DNA from: Pleurocapsa minor HA4230-MV1
GTDB lineage: Bacteria; Cyanobacteriota; Cyanobacteriia; Cyanobacteriales; Xenococcaceae
NCBI GenBank assembly: GCA_019359095.1
Contig: JAHHHZ010000017.1
Span: forward strand, 124,001-188,000
DNA: 64,000 bases
Direction of reading: 5' to 3'
In this document: positions 4,249-14,632 of the stretch, piece after piece
Position numbering within the stretch: the stretch's first letter is position 1
Layout: each line of letters opens with the position of its first letter
The notes under the pieces: model-generated
The model's database searches: none
What the model was told of the DNA's origin: nothing
What the model saw: only the letters and a program-made list of their open reading frames with translations
Program-made: the position numbers and the translations under genes

Positions 4249-5748
4249 ATGATGCCACAACAATCTTTCGATTGGACAGAAGATTCTGATTCTTTAATGG
4301 ATATTCAGCGGGTTGATAAGCCAGAAGAAGCCTGTGGTGTATTTGGGGTATATGCCCCTGAAACAACCTTTGATGTAGCCAAACTAACTTATTTCGGTCT
4401 TTATGCCCTACAACATCGAGGACAAGAATCAGCAGGAATTGCTACTTTAAACAAGGGTGATCTTTATTGCCACAAAGATATGGGGTTAGTTTCCCAGGTA
4501 TTTAACGAAGAAATATTAGGACAGCTACCTGGAGAAATTGCGGTTGGTCATACACGCTATTCCACTACTGGTTCTAGTTTAAAAGAAAATGCTCAACCTG
4601 TGGTGTTAGATACGCGACTAGGAAAACTAGCTCTAGCTCATAATGGTAACTTGGTCAATGCTGTGGAATTACGTCAGCATTTAATCCAAAGAGAGGCTAA
4701 TTTTATTAGCTCCACCGATTCCGAAATGATTGCCCTAACGATCGCCGATGAAGTCAACCGAGGTAAAAACTGGATTCAGGGAGCGGTTAATGCTTTTAAA
4801 ATGTGTGACGGCGCTTATAGCTTAGCGATCGCTACTCCTGATGGCTTAATGGGTGCGCGCGATCGCAATGGCATTCGACCTTTGGTAATTGGTGTACTGT
4901 CAACAGAAGATGGCAAACAGCAGCGCTATGTCTTATCTTCAGAAACCTGTGGTTTAGATATTATTGGGGCAGAATATGTCCGTGACGTACAGCCAGGAGA
5001 ATTAGTTTGGATCACTGATTCAGGGGTTGCATCGGTAACCTGGGCAAAAGAAGCAGATAAAAAGCTATGTATCTTTGAAATGATCTACTTTGCTCGTCCT
5101 GATAGTGTGATGCACGACGAGACTTTATATAGCTACCGTATTCGCCTCGGCAGACAATTAGCCAGAGAATCATTTGTCGATGCGGATTTAGTGATTGGAG
5201 TTCCAGATTCGGGTATCCCAGCGGCGATCGGCTTTTCTCGTGAATCTGGGCTTTCCTACGGCGAAGGATTGATTAAAAATCGCTATGTAGGGCGTACCTT
5301 TATTCAACCGACTCAAAGTATGCGGGAAGCTGGCATTCGCATGAAGCTCAATACCCTTAAGGATGCCTTGCAGGGTAAAAGAATTATCATTGTTGATGAT
5401 TCGATCGTGCGTGGCACAACCAGCAAAAAAATTGTTCAAACCTTAAGAGATGCTGGGGCAACGGAAGTACACATGCGCATTTCTTCTCCCCCCGTAACCC
5501 ATCCCTGTTTTTATGGCATCGATACCGATAACCAAGATCAGCTAATCGCTGCGACTAAATCTGTGAAAGAGATTGAAGCAAGAATTGGCGTTGATACCTT
5601 GGCATATTTATCTTGGGAGGGAATGCTCGAAGCAACTCAGGAGAATACTAATAATTTCTGTTCAGCCTGCTTTACGGGGGATTATCCTGTTACTATCCCT
5701 GAAGATGTCAAACGTTCTAAATTGATGTTAGAAAAAATCAAGGTTTAA
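4249..5748 (+). CDS. purF: Amidophosphoribosyltransferase (glutamine PRPP amidotransferase)
   Basis: PurF commits PRPP to purine synthesis by making 5-phosphoribosylamine with glutamine as the nitrogen donor. The protein has a short propeptide before the catalytic cysteine in EEACGVFGVYAPE; maturation would expose this Cys as N-terminal nucleophile. The Ntn-hydrolase half shows ALQHRGQESAGIAT and VGHTRYSTTGSS. The transferase half has the PRPP loop IIIVDDSIVRGTTSKK. Cysteines near the C-terminus (NNFCSACFTGDYP) fit the iron-sulfur type seen in Bacillus and cyanobacteria. At 499 residues it is full length. It follows purL, giving a compact purine pair, although the 201-bp spacer could contain its own promoter. 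Confidence 0.95.
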   Translation: MMPQQSFDWTEDSDSLMDIQRVDKPEEACGVFGVYAPETTFDVAKLTYFGLYALQHRGQESAGIATLNKGDLYCHKDMGLVSQVFNEEILGQLPGEIAVGHTRYSTTGSSLKENAQPVVLDTRLGKLALAHNGNLVNAVELRQHLIQREANFISSTDSEMIALTIADEVNRGKNWIQGAVNAFKMCDGAYSLAIATPDGLMGARDRNGIRPLVIGVLSTEDGKQQRYVLSSETCGLDIIGAEYVRDVQPGELVWITDSGVASVTWAKEADKKLCIFEMIYFARPDSVMHDETLYSYRIRLGRQLARESFVDADLVIGVPDSGIPAAIGFSRESGLSYGEGLIKNRYVGRTFIQPTQSMREAGIRMKLNTLKDALQGKRIIIVDDSIVRGTTSKKIVQTLRDAGATEVHMRISSPPVTHPCFYGIDTDNQDQLIAATKSVKEIEARIGVDTLAYLSWEGMLEATQENTNNFCSACFTGDYPVTIPEDVKRSKLMLEKIKV

Positions 5749-5795
5749 AGATATATTGGTTTGGGAAATGACTATAGATTAGCGATCGCCAATCT

Positions 5796-7745
5796 TTACT
5801 CCCAACCAAACTCCATGCCTAAATATTGTTCCAACTGCTGATTGTAGGGGGTGAAATATTTGACTAAAGCCTCTCGAATGTTGGGATCTACATCTTGATA
5901 AGAACCTGCATTAACCTTGGGATAATTATCTTGAGGATAGCTAGGTAGGTTAAGGAATTTAAATACCTGTTCCATATTTGCGCGAGTATTTAGATAAAAA
6001 TCTTCGCTTTTGAGAATTAAAAACTGTTCGCGACCTAAAATTTCCATCCAGGGTTTAAGTTTATAGATATAAAGACTACTCATAATATTATCTGGGTCAT
6101 AATAGCCCGTGTTAGTAATCTCTGCTTCAGAGACGGTAGCTAATCGATCGATTTCACTGGCGATCGCCGTTGCCAAATCCAGCTTAGTCAAGCCTGTATT
6201 GAGCTTATGATAATGCCAAGATATGGCTCGATCTACGGGATTTCTCAAGAGGATAATAATTTTGGTCTGGGGAAAAGTATCCTTAATTCTTTGCGCCACT
6301 TGAGGAAAGCGGATATAGTTAGGGGTTGCTTCTCCCGTGAGAAAATCTGGGCGATCGGTGAGCGTGGGGAAATGAGCTAAATACCAATCAACACCCCGTT
6401 TAAAATGCTTCCAATAGAAATCAAGCTCTTTTTTATGGGAGAGTAATACTTGAGGATGGTGACTGAGGTAATGATAAATTGAGGAAGTTCCGCATTTAGT
6501 TGCTCCAGCAATAATAAAGTCAGGCCCAGATTTTTTCTGGGTTGGCCATTCCAACTGTGCCAGATCGGGATAAGCTTTAATTGCCTGTTGATAACTTCCC
6601 TTACGGTAACACTCGATCGCTTCAGCGACTCGATCTTGTTGAGTTAAAGCATCCCCTAAATTACCCCAGGCGATCGCAATCTCAGGATGCTCGGTAACAA
6701 TTTGACGATAAACCTGAATCACTTCAGGAAATTGTTCTTTGGCGATAGGTGTATATTGCAGATCGATATAACTACTCTTAAAAAAAGGATCGAGTTGAAT
6801 TGACTTAAGATAAGCTGTAATCGCTTCAGGAAAAGAGCCTTTAGCCCGCAAAAGTTTACCCAACTGAAAATACAAATCAACAGCAATTGGAAGATCTTCA
6901 GCTAAAGTTGCTCGCTCACTCGTAATAGCTAACTCGGCTGAGGGATCTTGTTTAGTCACATGTTCGATTGCTTGACGTAAATAGGCGATCGCTAAATCAA
7001 ATTGCTGTAAGTGCCGATAAACCGCTCCCAGCTTGCTCAAAGCCAAAACAAACTCAGGTTTAATCGAGATTACTTGGCGATAAGCTGAAATTGCCTGTTG
7101 CCATTGCTGTTGATTTTGCCAGAGCCTTCCTAACTGATAATAAGGAAGAGCATAGTTGGGCTTGAGGGCGATCGCCTTTTGCCAGTGACTTTCCGCTTCA
7201 TCATGTTCTTGAAGCTTAAAACAAGCTAAGCCCCAATAATAGTAAATTTTGGCTGACGGCTCTAACTCTGCTGCTTGCTGTAGGTGCGATCGCGCCTGGT
7301 CATATTCTTGTCGCTTATAGTTGACCAGACCCCAATGATAGTAAACTCTAGCGCTTGGCTCTAATTTTGCTGCTTGTTGATAATTATTACTGGCTCGCAA
7401 CCATTTATTTTGAGCTTCTAAGGCGAATGCGAGAGCGAAAAGATAGTTAGAATTGTCGGGATTGTTTTTAACTCCCTGACGATAAACTTTGATCGCCTCT
7501 TCATCTTTACCCTGTTGCAACAGCAGATCTGCCAAAATCTTATATACCGACTCAAAATCAGGCTGAAGCGTAATTGCCTGTCGGTAATGCTTAACTGCCA
7601 GTTGCCATCGTTGTTGTTGGGCATATAAATCTCCCAAATTAGCGTTTGCTTCGGCAGATTGAGGATTAGCCTCTATTTGTTGAACACACTCGGCGATCGC
7701 CTGTTCGAGTTCAACTGAATCTAATTGGGACAAAGAACTTTTCAC
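5796..7745 (-). CDS. TPR protein fused to a sulfotransferase domain
   Basis: Residues 1 to about 400 are tandem tetratricopeptide repeats with the usual W/L/G/Y/A/F/A/P spacing (NANLGDLYAQQQRWQLAVKH, YYHWGLVNYKRQEYDQA). The last 245 residues are a PAPS-dependent sulfotransferase. The 5'-phosphosulfate loop is FIIAGATKCGTSSIYHYL and the 3'-phosphate motif is LLRNPVDRAISWHYHK. There is no signal peptide, so it should act in the cytoplasm, probably on a polysaccharide, lipid-linked glycan or protein held by the TPR array. It is the last of three same-strand TPR-transferase genes, 29 bp from the next, which suggests co-transcription. The acceptor cannot be read from the sequence. Confidence 0.88.
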   Translation of the reverse strand: MKSSLSQLDSVELEQAIAECVQQIEANPQSAEANANLGDLYAQQQRWQLAVKHYRQAITLQPDFESVYKILADLLLQQGKDEEAIKVYRQGVKNNPDNSNYLFALAFALEAQNKWLRASNNYQQAAKLEPSARVYYHWGLVNYKRQEYDQARSHLQQAAELEPSAKIYYYWGLACFKLQEHDEAESHWQKAIALKPNYALPYYQLGRLWQNQQQWQQAISAYRQVISIKPEFVLALSKLGAVYRHLQQFDLAIAYLRQAIEHVTKQDPSAELAITSERATLAEDLPIAVDLYFQLGKLLRAKGSFPEAITAYLKSIQLDPFFKSSYIDLQYTPIAKEQFPEVIQVYRQIVTEHPEIAIAWGNLGDALTQQDRVAEAIECYRKGSYQQAIKAYPDLAQLEWPTQKKSGPDFIIAGATKCGTSSIYHYLSHHPQVLLSHKKELDFYWKHFKRGVDWYLAHFPTLTDRPDFLTGEATPNYIRFPQVAQRIKDTFPQTKIIILLRNPVDRAISWHYHKLNTGLTKLDLATAIASEIDRLATVSEAEITNTGYYDPDNIMSSLYIYKLKPWMEILGREQFLILKSEDFYLNTRANMEQVFKFLNLPSYPQDNYPKVNAGSYQDVDPNIREALVKYFTPYNQQLEQYLGMEFGWE

Positions 7746-7774
7746 TGGTTAATTACTGATTAATTACTGACCTA

Positions 7775-9235
7775 TTAAAGCTTGCGAATAATTAATTGGA
7801 AAGTAGGAGGAGATAAATGAACTGTTTGCCACTGATCTTTAACAGAAATCAAAAAGCGATCGATACCTGCTCTAGGATCTTGCTGTGGATCTTGAGGATT
7901 ACGCCAACCATAGTAAGCAAAGATGATTAATCCTCCTGATTTAATCAGCTTCCAAGCTAGTTGAGCATTAGTTTCGTTGTCTTGAATTAATTTACATCGA
8001 TCTTGAAGATGGATTAAATCGAAACTATCTGGGGTACATTCTGCCAGTTTTTGCTGAGTCTCACCCTTGCACATGCTTACTTTAGATTCAGCACCAGTTT
8101 TAATGATGTTCTCTTTAAATTTGTCGGCAAACTGACTATCAATACAGGTAAGATGACTTGCCTGATGAGTCAACAACCGATCTAATAGCCAACAGCTAGA
8201 CATTCCCTGATAACAGCCAACTTCTAAAGCATTTATGGCTTGTCCTTTGAGAGATTCTAGCTGCTCTGACCAAAGAGGAATACGATGACTAAAAATATCT
8301 GTCGAGAAAAAATAGTCATGGGCGACACATTGATCCCAACCGCGTTGTTTACAGGCTTTTTGAAAGTTTAAGGCTGCTTCAGCTAATTTACCTTTTGCCC
8401 GCAGAGCATTACCTAGATGACTATATACCCAGGGATATTCTTCTACCAGATTAATAATGGCATAGCAAGTGGAAATTGCTTCATCCCATTTTTCAGTCAG
8501 TAAGAAAGTTTTAACCAAGTCGCGATATGCCCAGGAAAAGTCGGGATCGTGCTTAATCGTCAGACGAAAACAGGCGATCGCTTCGGCAAATGCACGTTGT
8601 TGAAGGTAAATCGTGCCTAACTTATACTGTGCCTTGGCTGCTGTTGGTTCAATCTCTAAAGCCTTCTGATAGAGAGCCTGCGCCCGATTTAATTTGCCCT
8701 GCTGTTGATAAATTTCTCCCAAATCGAAAAAGGCGGGGACAGCGGTTTTACTGCCAACAGTTGCCTGTTCATAACAGGCGATCGCTTCGGTGATTTTGCC
8801 TTTCTGTTCTAAGGCTTTCGCCAATTTATAGTATCCTTGCTGGTTAACTAAATCAGGATTAATCTGGGTTGCTTTATACCAGTATTCCATTTCTGCATCT
8901 CTGCGCTGAAGCTGACCATTAATCTGAGCCAAAGCAGAGTAGACGCGGACAGAATTAGGCAAGTGTTCTAGAGCATGTTCAAAGCAGCTGAGGGCTGCAA
9001 TTAAATTATTTTCCAACAAATGCAGTTCCCCCAGTTGGGAATATGCTTCTGCCAAATTAAGAGTATGATCTAATGCCAAAGAATGCCAGACAATAGCTCG
9101 GTCAAATTCTGCTCTTCCTTGGAGTAGATTGCCTAAATTACTGAAAGCAGCCTGCCATTGTTCAGGATGATTGGCGCTAGTTATAATTGCCTGTTCGCAC
9201 TGGGTAATAGCCTGAGCTAAATAGGTAGAAACCAC
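7775..9235 (-). CDS. TPR protein fused to a class I SAM-dependent methyltransferase
   Basis: About the first 310 residues are TPR units (FSNLGNLLQGRAEFDRAIVW, FFDLGEIYQQQGKLNRA). The final part from about residue 325 looks like a Rossmann methyltransferase of the Methyltransf_24 kind. Motif I reads NALEVGCYQGMSSCWLLD and the acidic strand 2 end is HLTCIDSQF. DSFDLIHLQDRC and GGLIIFAYYGWRNPQ follow. It would transfer a methyl group from SAM, possibly to a sugar, but the acceptor is unknown. It lies between the TPR-sulfotransferase (29 bp downstream) and TPR-GT61 (139 bp upstream) genes and has the same architecture as both. Confidence 0.85.
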   Translation of the reverse strand: MVSTYLAQAITQCEQAIITSANHPEQWQAAFSNLGNLLQGRAEFDRAIVWHSLALDHTLNLAEAYSQLGELHLLENNLIAALSCFEHALEHLPNSVRVYSALAQINGQLQRRDAEMEYWYKATQINPDLVNQQGYYKLAKALEQKGKITEAIACYEQATVGSKTAVPAFFDLGEIYQQQGKLNRAQALYQKALEIEPTAAKAQYKLGTIYLQQRAFAEAIACFRLTIKHDPDFSWAYRDLVKTFLLTEKWDEAISTCYAIINLVEEYPWVYSHLGNALRAKGKLAEAALNFQKACKQRGWDQCVAHDYFFSTDIFSHRIPLWSEQLESLKGQAINALEVGCYQGMSSCWLLDRLLTHQASHLTCIDSQFADKFKENIIKTGAESKVSMCKGETQQKLAECTPDSFDLIHLQDRCKLIQDNETNAQLAWKLIKSGGLIIFAYYGWRNPQDPQQDPRAGIDRFLISVKDQWQTVHLSPPTFQLIIRKL

Positions 9236-9374
9236 GGATTTAATTGATGAAGATTAATAATGATTAACGGTTGCTGGCGAAATACTCGATCACCTTTAAC
9301 AGACATTGCTCAAATCGATTGCCCTAGGTGAAACTGAATTACATACAAAAATAAAACTAACTTTAATCTTGTTG

Positions 9375-12065
9375 CTAACAATGCTGCAAAACTAATTTAA
9401 GCGCATCAATACTAACAAAAATATCTTCAGTTAGTGCATTCTGATACATTAAATTACGGAGAGACGAACAGCTAAAGTTTTGTCCCACTATGTAATAGTG
9501 TTGTAAGTCTAGTTGTTGGCTAATCATCCAGTAGTCTGTTCTGATATAGTTAGGCGAAAAAAGCTCAACTACTTGAGTATGAGGAGAACAAAAAACTAGG
9601 TTAGTTAGCCCCGAACCATGAGGAGAGACAATCATCTTGGCACTAGCAAAGGTCTTTACCTGCTCTAAAAAAGACATTTCTTCAAGAAACACCGTCACAA
9701 AACCTAATTTAGTGAGTAACTGACTGACTTCTATCTCGTTAACCAACCGCCTATTTTTAGCCCTAGCTCGACTAACATAGATTTTAGAATAATTTTGATT
9801 ATTCTGGTTTGAATTAATTTGGGGCAAAAAGGTTTCTCTGAGAAACTTAATTGTTCCTTCAGGAACCCAGTCTAGGTAACCAGGGAAAGAAGGTACAATT
9901 AGCTCGCTAGCTTGAATATGACTGTGGCGATCGCTTTCAATAATCTTATCCTGGGCAATTCCCATTAGATCCAAAGTTTCTTGCTGATAGGGTTTGCTCA
10001 AACTATTGACCACAAACCAATCGATTTCTTTGAATTTGAGTTCACTGCGCCTTAACAGCTCTAATCGCGGCAAAATATCAAACATCCAATGATAGTAAAC
10101 ATGACCCGCCAAGCTCGATAATAAAGCCACTCTGCCTGTAATTTTTTCGACAGGAGCAATATTTTCTTGTTCAAAAATGCTATGTTCGGCTCGTTCTTGA
10201 TAAGGACATCCAGGCAAAAACCAAGGATAGTTTCTGGATAAATCTCCCAAGAGATAGTTATCTGGTGTAATGACTGCCATCGCATAACAAATTACCCAAG
10301 AGTTTTTTTGTGGCGCTACCCAAGCTCTACCATTGGGAATTGTTACTACAAAAGGCAATCCTGAGTCAATTTTAGGAGCTTGTTCTAGGGAACATTGGTA
10401 AGCATTTTGACCTATTTGAAGTGGCTTAAACTGAGCGATTAGCTTAGTCATACAACTGTTACAGTTGACTCCACCACAATCTGGGTAGGATGTATCCCCA
10501 GGCTTAATTTTGATTGCTTCTGGCTGCCTAACTATTTTTGTTTTATTCTGAACTACTGGCGCTTGTGACCACAATACCTGCACATAATCAAAATCTTTTA
10601 AGTTACTGTCTCGCACCCAGTCTTGAGTGTGATGATAAATTTGAGTCGGTAACGATGCTAGATTATCTTCGGTGGGGAATAATTTAGGTAACTGCTTCCA
10701 GTCATCTTGCTGGCGATCGCTTAAGACCCTTTCATAATAATTAATCGCTTGTTCTGCCTGCTGAGTTTTTTCCAAAACTTTACCCAGTTGAAAACAAATC
10801 TGAGGCTGATTTGGTTGCAGAGCCAAACCTTGATGGTAAACAATCACAGCAGCATTTAGTCTCCGCTGTCGAGCCAGGCAGTTTCCCAACTTAAGATATA
10901 GTTCTATATCCTCTGGTTGAAGTTGTAAAGCACGCTGATAATAACTTTCTGCCTGCTTAATTCCCCCAAACTCAAATAATACATCTCCCATGTAACCATA
11001 GGTTCGCCAAAGATGATGATAAGCTTCCTCTTGTTGTCCTGATTTTAAGGCTTGAAGCAAGCGAGCGCAGGCTAATTTGGCAATTTCCAACAGATCTTCG
11101 GGACTGCTGGTTAGTTTTCCTTGACAATAAGCATTAACAAAATCTGGTTCTAGCTCAATTATTCTTTGCCAGGATTCTAAAGTCGATGCTAGATTGCCCA
11201 TTTTTTGCTGCACTTCGGCATAACTACTATGAGCTAAAACATTCTGAGGCTCAAGCTGAAGTACATGCTGAAAACAGCGAGAAGCTTCAGCATAGTTACC
11301 CTGTTGCTGCCAAAGACGACCTAAATTATGATGTGCCAAAGCCATTTTTGGCGACAAAATGATCGCTGTTTCAAAACTAGTTAGAGCAAGTTCTGGTTGA
11401 GAATTAAACCAATACACTTGACCCAAATTATTGTGTAAAGTAACCCAAGTGGGATCTAAAGCAATTCCTTTTCTCAAGGTAGCGATCGCCTTAGAATATT
11501 CTTGTTGGCGAGCGTAAGTACTCCCTAAATTACTATAAGCTTGGACTAAATCAGGCTGAATAGTAATTACCTGCTGATAGGCAGCGATCGCCGCATCTAG
11601 TTCTCCTTTTTGATCGTAAAGTACTCCTAAATTGAAGTATGCTGCTTCATAATCAGGATTGATTTTAATTGTTTGATTGTAGGCAGCGATCGCCTCCTGC
11701 CAATTGCCCATCTGATGTAGCACAACCGCCAAGTTGTACTGTAATTCCGCCCAATAAGGTTGCAGCTTTAAAGCCTGTTTGTAATGCCATACTGCCTGTC
11801 GAGGATCTTGCTGCTTACTATGAAGTAAACCTAATTCTGCATAAATTTCTGCCTGGTTAATTCTCGTACCGAGAGTTTTTCGATAAGCACTAATAGCTGG
11901 GGCAAATTTACCCTGTTGAGCATAAGCTCTAGCAAGATAGGGATAAAAATCAATTCCATCGGGATCGGTGGCGATCGCCTGCTGACAGATCTCAATAACC
12001 TGCTCCCATTCTCCTCGCCCTAAATGAATTTTAATCTTCTTGAATGAGGATTCGCCTCTTATCAT
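9375..12065 (-). CDS. TPR protein fused to a GT61 (DUF563) glycosyltransferase
   Basis: The N-terminal half (to about residue 480) is a long TPR superhelix, with a break near residue 310 where the repeats lose register. The C-terminal region is a GT61/DUF563 glycosyltransferase: LAGHVYYHWMFDILPRLELL, KIYVSRARAKNRRLVNEIEV, then the family signature VSPHGSGLTNLVFCSP. A cysteine cluster, CGGVNCNSC, sits between the TPRs and the GT domain and could bind a metal or form disulfides. GT61 enzymes usually transfer xylose, GlcNAc or similar sugars to glycans or proteins. No signal peptide is seen. This is probably the first gene of the three-gene TPR-transferase run. Confidence 0.87.
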   Translation of the reverse strand: MIRGESSFKKIKIHLGRGEWEQVIEICQQAIATDPDGIDFYPYLARAYAQQGKFAPAISAYRKTLGTRINQAEIYAELGLLHSKQQDPRQAVWHYKQALKLQPYWAELQYNLAVVLHQMGNWQEAIAAYNQTIKINPDYEAAYFNLGVLYDQKGELDAAIAAYQQVITIQPDLVQAYSNLGSTYARQQEYSKAIATLRKGIALDPTWVTLHNNLGQVYWFNSQPELALTSFETAIILSPKMALAHHNLGRLWQQQGNYAEASRCFQHVLQLEPQNVLAHSSYAEVQQKMGNLASTLESWQRIIELEPDFVNAYCQGKLTSSPEDLLEIAKLACARLLQALKSGQQEEAYHHLWRTYGYMGDVLFEFGGIKQAESYYQRALQLQPEDIELYLKLGNCLARQRRLNAAVIVYHQGLALQPNQPQICFQLGKVLEKTQQAEQAINYYERVLSDRQQDDWKQLPKLFPTEDNLASLPTQIYHHTQDWVRDSNLKDFDYVQVLWSQAPVVQNKTKIVRQPEAIKIKPGDTSYPDCGGVNCNSCMTKLIAQFKPLQIGQNAYQCSLEQAPKIDSGLPFVVTIPNGRAWVAPQKNSWVICYAMAVITPDNYLLGDLSRNYPWFLPGCPYQERAEHSIFEQENIAPVEKITGRVALLSSLAGHVYYHWMFDILPRLELLRRSELKFKEIDWFVVNSLSKPYQQETLDLMGIAQDKIIESDRHSHIQASELIVPSFPGYLDWVPEGTIKFLRETFLPQINSNQNNQNYSKIYVSRARAKNRRLVNEIEVSQLLTKLGFVTVFLEEMSFLEQVKTFASAKMIVSPHGSGLTNLVFCSPHTQVVELFSPNYIRTDYWMISQQLDLQHYYIVGQNFSCSSLRNLMYQNALTEDIFVSIDALKLVLQHC

Positions 12066-12338
12066 TGATGCTAATGGGAATGACCCTGACTCAAATTACA
12101 GAATAGATAGAGTGATAGGATAACTCGATTAATTTAAAAATAAAGCTATAGCGATCGGCTTGAGGTATTTTGTGGACTGAAACGCTGACTATTTTTGCTA
12201 GTTTGACTAATAAACTAATAATTTTATCGAATATCTCTACATACTATTAGACCCACAACTTTTCGTCATGGGTCTAATTCTCGTTATTGTGATTTTAGCG
12301 ATTAAAAATATATATACTCAAGCCCAAGATCTGCTTAG

Positions 12339-13064
12339 TTATGAGATCTCCCAATTATCAGTACCTTCTTGTTTACTAATCTGAATATCTTCTAGACCTT
12401 TACCAATATTGATCGCATTTTCTCCATCGACACGCAACATTCCTGTATTAGCATCGTAGCTTACAACGTCATCACCGACTCCCAAGATTCTGATCATATC
12501 AGTATCTTCACCTTCGGTTTCAAAATCGATGATTCGATCTAATCTACCGACAAATTCATCTTTGTCAAATTCAAAAAGATCGCTACCAGCACCACCCCTG
12601 AACACGTCAGCATTAAGACCACCCTTCAAGGTATCGTTACCAGCGCCACCATCGAGCATATCGTTACCAGCACCACCGATGAGAATGTCAGCACCAAGAC
12701 CTCCTTTAAGAGTATCGTTGCCTTCACTACCATCGAGCATATCGTCGCCAGCACCACCGATGAGAATATCAGCACCAAGACCTCCCTCGATGGTATCTTT
12801 ACCTTCACCACCATCGATAAGATCGCTGCCTTTTCCACCTACAAGCAGATCATCCCCATCTAACCCCAAGGCAGTAGAACTACCTGCTGCTGTAAGGCGA
12901 ATCGTATCATTTTTAGCTCCACCCACAAGAGTTAGTGAAGAACCAGATTCTTGTCCATTGGGTTTAACTTCAATCAAGTTTGTTTGACCCTGTAAACCTA
13001 TATAGTCTAAATTTTCACCAGTAATCGTTGCGCCATTTCCCAAATCTAAGACAATACTTGACAT
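12339..13064 (-). CDS. RTX calcium-binding repeat protein
   Basis: The 241-residue protein contains roughly nine RTX nonapeptides of the GGxGxDxLx type between about residues 75 and 165 ([20 protein letters not shown] is one stretch). These fold into a calcium-stabilised beta-roll. The N-terminus ([19 protein letters not shown]) has no Sec signal, and the acidic C-terminal tail is what type I secretion systems recognise, so export by type I is likely. At DNA level two long repeats lie 81 bp apart (three nonapeptides) at about 12651-12704 and 12732-12785, showing recent internal duplication. No enzymatic domain is visible. It sits 273 bp upstream of the TPR-transferase genes on the same strand. 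Confidence 0.85.
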
Positions 13065-13639
13065 AATTAATATATCCTAACTATTTATAATTTAATCTTG
13101 ACTTAAACATCTCCATCAAAACTTTAGGTATTAAACCTATTAAAAACTATCATAGTTCATATTTTTTTTACGTCCAGTTAAAAAATACACAAAAAAATAT
13201 TTTGATTACTATTAACAAAAAATATTTTAGGTTTCCAAATAATTGATTAAAACAGGTTTGTTTTATGTAAAAACACTGATAATCAGTAAACTTGCCAAAT
13301 AAAATAATCATCAGATTTTCAACTTTTAAAATATCTAAGTATCAATTTTTTAGTAAGTCAAAAATAAAAATAACCATTTATAGATTAAAAATTTTGCTTT
13401 TTAAGTTAGACATATCAAATAAATCTAATATTGTAAATTAGAATAATTACTGAATATCAGTAATAACATTTACGTGATTTGAGCTAATTTTTTATTGTTC
13501 AATGGAGTTAGGAAAAATGTCCACAACCTACTAAGCTGTTACGCATTCACAACAAGCAAATTAAATGAAACAGCTTACTTACTACTTACTACCTACTACC
13601 TATTTGCCCTAAGCTAATTTTGTACGGCTATATGTCTGG
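13065..13639. other. 575-bp AT-rich intergenic region
   Basis: This spacer separates the RTX gene start from the sugar kinase stop. It is very AT-rich with many A and T runs near 13140-13450. I find no convincing ORF. Its left side should carry the RTX promoter. Its right end carries the tandem run TACTACCTACTACC near 13592 and one copy of the dispersed motif listed at 13614. Confidence 0.5.
13614..13632 (-). repeat. Dispersed 19-bp motif, copy 1 (after the PfkB kinase gene)
   Basis: On the minus strand the motif reads TATAGCCGTACAAAATTAG. It lies 7 nt beyond the stop codon of the PfkB-family gene and is followed by a GGTAGTA-type heptamer array. Further copies are at 15429, 20919, 40276 and 46401. 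Confidence 0.8.
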
Positions 13640-14632
13640 CTAAAATTTTTCGAGCAAAGCTTGAACTAATTCAGGACTTGGTTGAGCAGCGATCGCCCCC
13701 GATTTAGTTGCCGTCAAACCACCCACCGCACAGGCATATTTAACCACATCTTGAGCCACTTGAGGATTAGATAACTCTTGTATTCCTCGTTGACATAGTT
13801 GATGAATAAAGCCAGCTAGAAAGGCATCTCCTGCACCAGTAGTATCCTGAACTTGTACGGGAAAGGGACTAACCTTACCCTCGTTTTCGGCAAGACAATA
13901 ACTCACCTGAGCAGCTCCATTGCTGACTAAAACACCTTCGACAGACGCAAGACGATAAAAAATTGCCCCTGCGTCGGCAGTCTCAAATAACCACCTAGCT
14001 TCTTCTTCTGCTAGCTTGAGAAAGTCCACATACGACCAAAGCTGCTCAATTAAGGGCAAAGCTTCCTCTTCATTGAGCCAAAACATCGAGCGCCAATTAA
14101 CGTCGAGAACAATCTTCAAATGATATTCCTCGGCTAATTCTAGAGCGCGAAATACAGCAGCTCTACTGTTAGGATAAGCTAGCTCCAAAGTGCCAATTAC
14201 TAGATATTCTGCTGCTAAAAATAGTTCTGTGGGCAGCAGATCACCCTGAAGATAGGCATCGGCAAAGCAATCGGCAGGTTGATTGCCAAAACCCGCAAAA
14301 GTGCGATCGCCTTCAACAGTACGAGTAACATAAACCTGCCTAGTAGGAGCTTGTTTAGTGTATTGAACGCCAGATACATCAACTCCAATCGACTGTAAGA
14401 GTTGAACCAGTTCCTTTCCAGCCTCATCTTGACCAACACAGCCAATAAATGCTGAGGAGGTACCCAATTTAGTCAAAGCACTAGCAACGTTAGCAGGAGC
14501 GCCTCCTGGGTAAGAAGTCCACGATGTAACTTCTGATGCAGATTTGCCTAATTCATCAGCAAGACAATCAAATAATATTTCCCCCAAGCAAATAACTTTA
14601 GCAGGGCGATTGGCGATCGCTTTATGGTTCAA
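13640..14632 (-). CDS. PfkB-family carbohydrate kinase, probably fructokinase
   Basis: The 330-residue ribokinase-like protein begins with CLGEILFDCLADELG and the sugar-binding SYPGGAPANVASALTKLG. The ATP and catalytic-base motif is DTTGAGDAFLAGFIHQL, where Asp of GAGD is the expected general base. The N-terminal GEILFDCLA and overall length are closest to bacterial fructokinases, which phosphorylate free fructose, for example after sucrose cleavage. Substrate cannot be fixed from motifs alone; other PfkB sugars are possible. It is a single minus-strand gene, and its stop is followed within 10 nt by the dispersed TATAGCC motif. Confidence 0.85.
   Translation of the reverse strand: MNHKAIANRPAKVICLGEILFDCLADELGKSASEVTSWTSYPGGAPANVASALTKLGTSSAFIGCVGQDEAGKELVQLLQSIGVDVSGVQYTKQAPTRQVYVTRTVEGDRTFAGFGNQPADCFADAYLQGDLLPTELFLAAEYLVIGTLELAYPNSRAAVFRALELAEEYHLKIVLDVNWRSMFWLNEEEALPLIEQLWSYVDFLKLAEEEARWLFETADAGAIFYRLASVEGVLVSNGAAQVSYCLAENEGKVSPFPVQVQDTTGAGDAFLAGFIHQLCQRGIQELSNPQVAQDVVKYACAVGGLTATKSGAIAAQPSPELVQALLEKF

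Follow-up and report, generated by a model that had tools for sequence, protein, structure and literature searches.

The window, by which we mean the whole stretch of DNA analysed, comprises 64,000 nucleotides from the 5.64-Mb genome of Pleurocapsa minor HA4230-MV1. A single run on its minus strand contains three open reading frames (ORFs) encoding a GT61 glycosyltransferase, a methyltransferase (MT) and a sulfotransferase (ST), each with its catalytic domain C-terminal to a TPR array (Table 1). All three domains scored above the Pfam curated cut-offs. Thus, the three same-strand TPR-transferase fusions with gaps of 29 and 139 bp, described in an earlier note on this DNA, were confirmed by ORF and Pfam analyses. 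That note omitted a fourth gene, encoding a small RTX protein and located directly upstream of the GT61 gene at a distance of 273 bp. The flanking genes are housekeeping-like, with AIR-synthase/PurL-type and PurF-type genes on one side and genes for a PfkB kinase, YlqD, an AMP-binding protein, RodZ and a pseudouridine synthase on the other. No polysaccharide polymerase, flippase or export gene, as would mark a Wzx/Wzy sulfated exopolysaccharide cluster, was found among the eight neighbouring window genes scanned. The closest named relatives by the GT61 domain are a Hyellaceae MAG, Pleurocapsa, Myxosarcina and Waterburya.

Table 1 Features of the TPR-transferase locus and of the second RTX set in the same genome.
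Feature	Position	Strand	Evidence
TPR-sulfotransferase gene, 649 aa, GTG start	5796..7745	-	ORF and Pfam
Sulfotransfer_1 domain, residues 408-602	5940..6524	-	PF00685, 8.1e-16
TPR-methyltransferase gene, 486 aa, GTG start	7775..9235	-	ORF and Pfam
Methyltransf_24 domain, residues 337-439	7919..8227	-	PF13578, 1.1e-12
TPR-GT61 gene, 896 aa	9375..12065	-	ORF and Pfam
GT61 (Glyco_transf_61) domain, residues 657-833	9567..10097	-	PF04577, 7.8e-32
CGGxxCxxC motif in the interval between TPR array and GT61 domain	10452..10478	-	Motif scan
TPR array of the GT61 protein, residues 12-448	10722..12032	-	11 matches to a custom TPR model; residues 309-355 unscored
Strong hairpin in the RTX-GT61 gap	12246..12278	-	Folding; similar in most relatives
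Small RTX calcium-binding protein, 241 aa, proposed acceptor	12339..13064	-	PF00353, 3.7e-26; kept position upstream of TPR-GT61
Second RTX/TPR-transferase set (own genome, contig C19)	L167:3573-13477		

We examined the kinship and motifs of the three catalytic domains. The glycosyltransferase belongs to GT61, and no GT41 family was detected among the best 25 of 26 matched families. Its closest solved relatives in a profile search were POMGNT2 (4.7e-9) and EOGT (1.5e-5), both of which build protein-bound O-glycans. When the whole TPR-GT61 protein was compared with natural PDB chains, the best match was OGT (7ntf, 2.9e-63), through the TPRs; an engineered TPR protein scored higher. An HGxGLTN-type motif was present in 92 of 112 standalone TPR-GT61 proteins and in 11 of 24 copies fused to a methyltransferase. 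The CGGxxCxxC motif, perhaps a metal site, occurred in 70 of the 112 standalone proteins and in none of the 24 fused ones. The methyltransferase is a Methyltransf_24 member with the class I ExGxxxG SAM motif (E in 31/33 rows, the glycines in 33/33 and 32/34), and it resembled solved O-methyltransferases weakly (best E = 0.0062). The sulfotransferase aligned best with the bacterial sulfotransferase 3rnl, followed by human heparan sulfate 3-O-sulfotransferases, and no tyrosylprotein sulfotransferase was among the 20 PDB sequences listed for it. Of the Sulfotransfer_1 (3-OST/NDST-like) motifs, G and T of the P-loop, the K-E pair, RNP and S were invariant in 27 of 27 rows, and the P-loop Lys was present in 22 of 27; these correspond to the PAPS P-loop, the K-E pair and the RNP-R/S residues.

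The earlier note had expected the TPR arrays of the trio to be close kin, which was not borne out. The mean repeat identities among the three arrays were 0.223, 0.242 and 0.227, compared with a background of 0.265 (sd 0.032; 55 pairs among 11 arrays of the own genome). Kinship within the trio thus does not exceed that among the genome's TPR arrays in general, and a common array origin was rejected. In phmmer searches, each array found, after itself, the array of the second RTX locus as its top match, but the length of that array raises its score. An Asn ladder, considered as a sign of peptide-backbone binding, was also set aside as not discriminating, since it was found in 52% (GT), 43% (ST) and 9% (MT) of repeats versus 52% elsewhere (other TPR proteins of the own genome, 48 repeats). 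The ladder is depleted in the MT arrays. The ladder position of TPR-MT proteins (52 arrays) is mostly occupied by Lys or Asp, not by Asn as in the GT and ST arrays.

To follow the gene order across species, 100 genomes (own included) were searched with each catalytic domain alone, so that the TPRs could not drive the matches. GT61 matches were found in 65 genomes, MT in 46 and ST in 76, with single ST matches counted among the matches listed. A strong GT61-domain match (E ≤ 2e-116) was present in 39 genomes, own included, by hand count. In 29 of these 39, an MT gene adjoined GT61 at a distance of at most 5 kb on the same strand of the same contig, and the full order GT61, MT and ST on one strand occurred in 22 of 39 (in G005 split over two contigs). 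The recurrence of the three fusions in the same order in this many genomes is more than chance. Seven genomes had MT with no adjoining ST, four of them cut by a contig end (G017, G018, G019 and G069) and three not (G016, G022 and G024). Among the ten of 39 with no MT beside GT61, G001 was cut by a contig end, G008 carried an MT-ST pair approximately 33 kb from GT61, G023, G062, G084 and G098 had MT matches away from GT61, and the domain search gave no MT match in G031, G035, G063 and G085. In many strong-GT61 genomes, long frames at other places encode ST homologues as well, so that a long ST protein by itself is nothing unusual.

The gaps between the genes ranged from 0 to 177 bp for GT-MT (26 loci) and from -23 to 140 bp for MT-ST, plus one of 347 bp (21 loci). 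In the 121 loci, collected as overlapping sets, 24 ORFs encoded a TPR-MT-GT61 protein in which MT is fused to a second GT61. These fusions were found in filamentous relatives, including Microcoleus, Kamptonema and Tychonema. The fused GT61 is a distinct type: its identity to the standalone type is 0.44, whereas members of the standalone type share 0.54 and members of the fused type 0.77. Synteny of the three fusions across genomes, proposed earlier as a check, was thus found. Together with the fusions and the short or overlapping junctions, it upholds the idea that the trio is one modular, co-inherited unit.

We then analyzed the position of RTX genes relative to TPR-GT61. Among the 121 loci, 8 had no recognised TPR-GT61, 17 had too little upstream sequence and 1 was the window, leaving 95 assessable loci with at least 1.5 kb upstream. 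An RTX gene lay within 2 kb upstream on the same strand in 28 of 34 relatives and 50 of 61 named loci, two sets that overlap in genomes. With the sets pooled, RTX occupied slot -1 in 69/100, -2 in 17/95, -3 in 8/88, -4 in 2/81 and -5/-6 in 0/126 cases, and slot +1 in 5/112 and +2 to +6 in 0/422. RTX is the closest gene partner of TPR-GT61. The link persists where no MT adjoins (L124 and L126-L128); in L126 and L127, which carry a divergent TPR-ST, RTX and GT61 overlap by 20 bp.

The upstream RTX gene was missing in 17 of the 95 assessable loci. In four of these (L116 and L190-L192) it lies just downstream of GT61, in L189 it is on the opposite strand, and in L245 it is 5.4 kb off. No common substitute gene was found among the misses inspected; the genes upstream encode an S13 peptidase in L114 and L135, an S41 peptidase in L122 and, on the opposite strand, a GT2 protein in L100 and L110. 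RTX and GT61 also vary together. For the 68 non-redundant pairs out of 81, the distances of the two proteins gave a Mantel r of 0.867, reached in none of 999 permutations, a correlation that is partly species phylogeny. Ten candidate genomes held two pairs, and 7 of them were usable; here, matching by RTX agreed with matching by GT61 in 17 of 21 genome comparisons, so that RTX type mostly follows GT61 type.

The window RTX protein contains eight full nonapeptides of the GGxGxDxxx calcium-binding type. RTX proteins linked to TPR-GT61 start with a sequence such as MSSIV or MTQVTNPTTPASS, continue with RTX repeats and end with a motif like FELF, common to 69 of 77. Residues 2-25 have an S/T/P fraction of 0.34 compared with 0.13 in the repeat region and are higher in 70 of 71 proteins, a comparison biased toward the tail by the Gly/Asp-rich repeats. 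The window tail is itself not S/T/P-rich (4 of 24 residues). A 631-aa RTX protein beside TPR-GT61 in the filamentous cyanobacterium Phorm 6 (L237) has a long mucin-like tail of STTP/NNSTAP repeats. Two HlyB-type exporters above the cut-off were detected in the own genome, one of them with an in-frame stop. At C20:52628-55972 of this genome, an RTX ORF lies near an HlyB-type exporter frame with an in-frame TAA.

Sixteen RTX ORFs were counted in the own genome, and two of them, the window gene and one other, lie beside TPR-transferase genes. The second encodes a 190-aa protein starting with MSSIV and heads genes for a TPR-GT2-GT4 protein (1431 aa) and a TPR-GT4-methyltransferase (1432 aa). In five further RTX neighbourhoods, a TPR ORF was present a few genes away in two (294 aa in L158 and 549 aa in L171) and in none of the other three. 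The remaining nine RTX ORFs were compared against the 150 scored of 301 TPR candidates, which makes the comparison for this genome incomplete. Beyond this genome, 20 stretches with small RTX genes not linked to GT61 were picked by hand. Nine of these contained a TPR ORF (L302, L303, L305, L307, L309, L312, L315, L320 and L321), with a TPR-GT2 or GT2 protein also beside it in L305, L307 and L312; L302 and L303 end at a contig edge. No TPR ORF was found in the other 11 stretches as fetched, several of which hold RTX proteins not of the MSSIV type; the small RTX family thus extends beyond the members linked to TPR genes. Nine neighbouring proteins of small RTX genes not linked to GT61 were scanned. 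They comprised GGDEF-EAL regulators, WD40, LmeA, a short-chain dehydrogenase, a tetrapyrrole methylase, a GT2/GT1 protein, a TPS-domain protein and the TPR-GT4-methyltransferase of the second locus, and no common theme was found among them besides the last. L308:8370-11602 and L310:4428-8362 hold small RTX relatives next to response-regulator GGDEF-EAL genes, and neither stretch contains a TPR ORF.

The gap between the RTX and GT61 genes contains a hairpin, with a z score of -2.43 for a 111-nt stretch. A best 45-nt folding energy of -14 kcal/mol or lower was found in 17 of 19 RTX-GT61 gaps versus 34 of 150 other gaps of the same loci, these counts coming from related, not independent, genomes. 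The window hairpin and several copies in relatives have no T run. Scans of the region gave no excess of promoter-like matches (23 vs 20.5 in shuffles) or terminator-like matches (5 vs 6.3), the hairpin not being among the latter, and Rfam gave nothing at gathering scores in 5600-13700. The hairpin may attenuate transcription between an abundant substrate and scarce enzymes.

The earlier note had proposed a common acceptor for the three transferases, and the adjacent RTX protein, unnamed there, is a concrete candidate for it. We lean towards the reading that the RTX protein is the operon's own substrate, to be glycosylated, methylated and sulfated before it is exported. On the strength of linkage and family knowledge, an acceptor role for this protein appears somewhat favoured. 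The domains, the gene order and its conservation, the RTX linkage and the RTX-GT61 co-variation are observations, from which we infer the following order of steps. The first gene would supply a small RTX protein, expected to be unfolded in the low-calcium cytosol. TPR-GT61 would grip the unfolded protein and add a sugar to Ser/Thr, in many RTX members probably in the N-terminal tail. TPR-MT would methylate and TPR-ST would sulfate the resulting glycan. A type I exporter encoded elsewhere would secrete the product, which would fold on calcium to become a sulfated surface or sheath glycoprotein.

This operon reading draws on the position of RTX before TPR-GT61, kept also where MT does not adjoin and as close as a 20-bp overlap, and on the second small RTX gene heading other TPR-transferase genes in the same genome. 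The GT61-RTX co-variation, the S/T/P-rich tails and the mucin-like tail of the 631-aa member point in the same direction, as do the kinship of GT61 with POMGNT2 and EOGT, the kinship and invariant motifs of ST and the absence of polysaccharide genes among the eight neighbours. Against it we weighed the window tail, the bias of the tail-versus-repeat comparison, the loci and stretches in which RTX or a TPR ORF is missing (17/95 and 11/20), the Asn ladder, which is not enriched, the phylogenetic part of the Mantel correlation and the weak kinship of MT. More tentatively, RTX glycoproteins of this kind may form a widespread class in cyanobacteria, each served by a TPR-transferase line of its own that makes a methylated, sulfated glycan on an unfolded cytosolic export substrate. 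This would be a bacterial parallel to the sulfated matrix glycoproteins of eukaryotes, with a GT61 relative of POMGNT2 and EOGT at its first step.

Some of these observations would also suit a different role for the RTX protein, as a secreted calcium-dependent matrix protein or lectin that partners a sulfated glycan built by the TPR-transferases on another acceptor, the genes adjoining because they are needed together. The small RTX relatives with no TPR gene nearby and the window tail agree with this, and cyanobacterial sulfotransferases are, according to passages of PMC8205485, mostly found in polysaccharide clusters. However, the tight placement of RTX directly before TPR-GT61, the pairing of RTX type with GT61 type and the presence, elsewhere in this genome, of another RTX protein at the head of another TPR-transferase set make us regard it as rather unlikely. 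We consider it improbable that the trio acts on a polysaccharide repeat unit, either lipid-linked or capsular, with the TPR arms recruiting a shared cytoplasmic scaffold or each other. The RTX linkage would be left unexplained, and the eight neighbours scanned include no polymerase, flippase or export gene, although ST is closest to glycan sulfotransferases and sulfated exopolysaccharide clusters exist in cyanobacteria (described in passages of PMC8205485). There is little to recommend direct protein modification, in which TPR-ST would sulfate tyrosines or other protein sites and TPR-MT would methylate RTX side chains with no common glycan. All three TPR arms are of a kind able to bind proteins and the RTX gene is adjacent, but ST matches heparan sulfate sulfotransferases and no tyrosylprotein sulfotransferase was among its listed PDB sequences.

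As far as our searches show, a locus that combines TPR-guided transferases of three chemistries with a neighbouring RTX gene is undescribed; full-text searches of open-access papers, among them PMC4284469, returned no description of such a system. The cyanobacterial surface proteins SwmA and oscillin are RTX proteins reported to be glycosylated (passages of PMC3034196), and no enzymes named for glycosylating such proteins were found in the literature searched. Both SwmA (130 kDa) and oscillin (646 residues) are larger than the window RTX protein (passages of PMC3034196). The 631-aa RTX protein of L237 is close in length to oscillin. With a candidate substrate and three transferases in one conserved operon, the glycosylation question becomes directly testable. 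In the synechan xss cluster of Synechocystis, sulfotransferases work with glycosyltransferases as proposed here, but that cluster follows a Wzx/Wzy polysaccharide pathway, unlike this locus (passages of PMC8205485); the word tetratricopeptide is absent from the main text of that paper.

OGT and SPINDLY (GT41) resemble TPR-GT61 in having a TPR superhelix N-terminal to the glycosyltransferase. They differ in that the present enzyme is GT61, three transferase types share one gene run and an RTX gene is adjacent. POMGNT2 and EOGT are eukaryotic GT61 enzymes detectable as relatives by profile; unlike TPR-GT61, they have no TPR array and act in the secretory pathway. If the operon reading is true, the locus would reveal a bacterial route to sulfated glycoproteins that is cytosolic and guided by TPR arrays. 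Operons dedicated to the decoration of an exported protein are in themselves familiar. In the adhesin glycosylation loci of HMW1C, TibC and SRR GtfA/B, the exported protein gene lies beside its own glycosyltransferase genes, and a candidate exported protein gene likewise lies beside transferase genes here. In contrast to those loci, no exporter gene was recognised alongside, the transferases belong to other families and are joined by methyl- and sulfotransferases, and the candidate substrate is an RTX protein.
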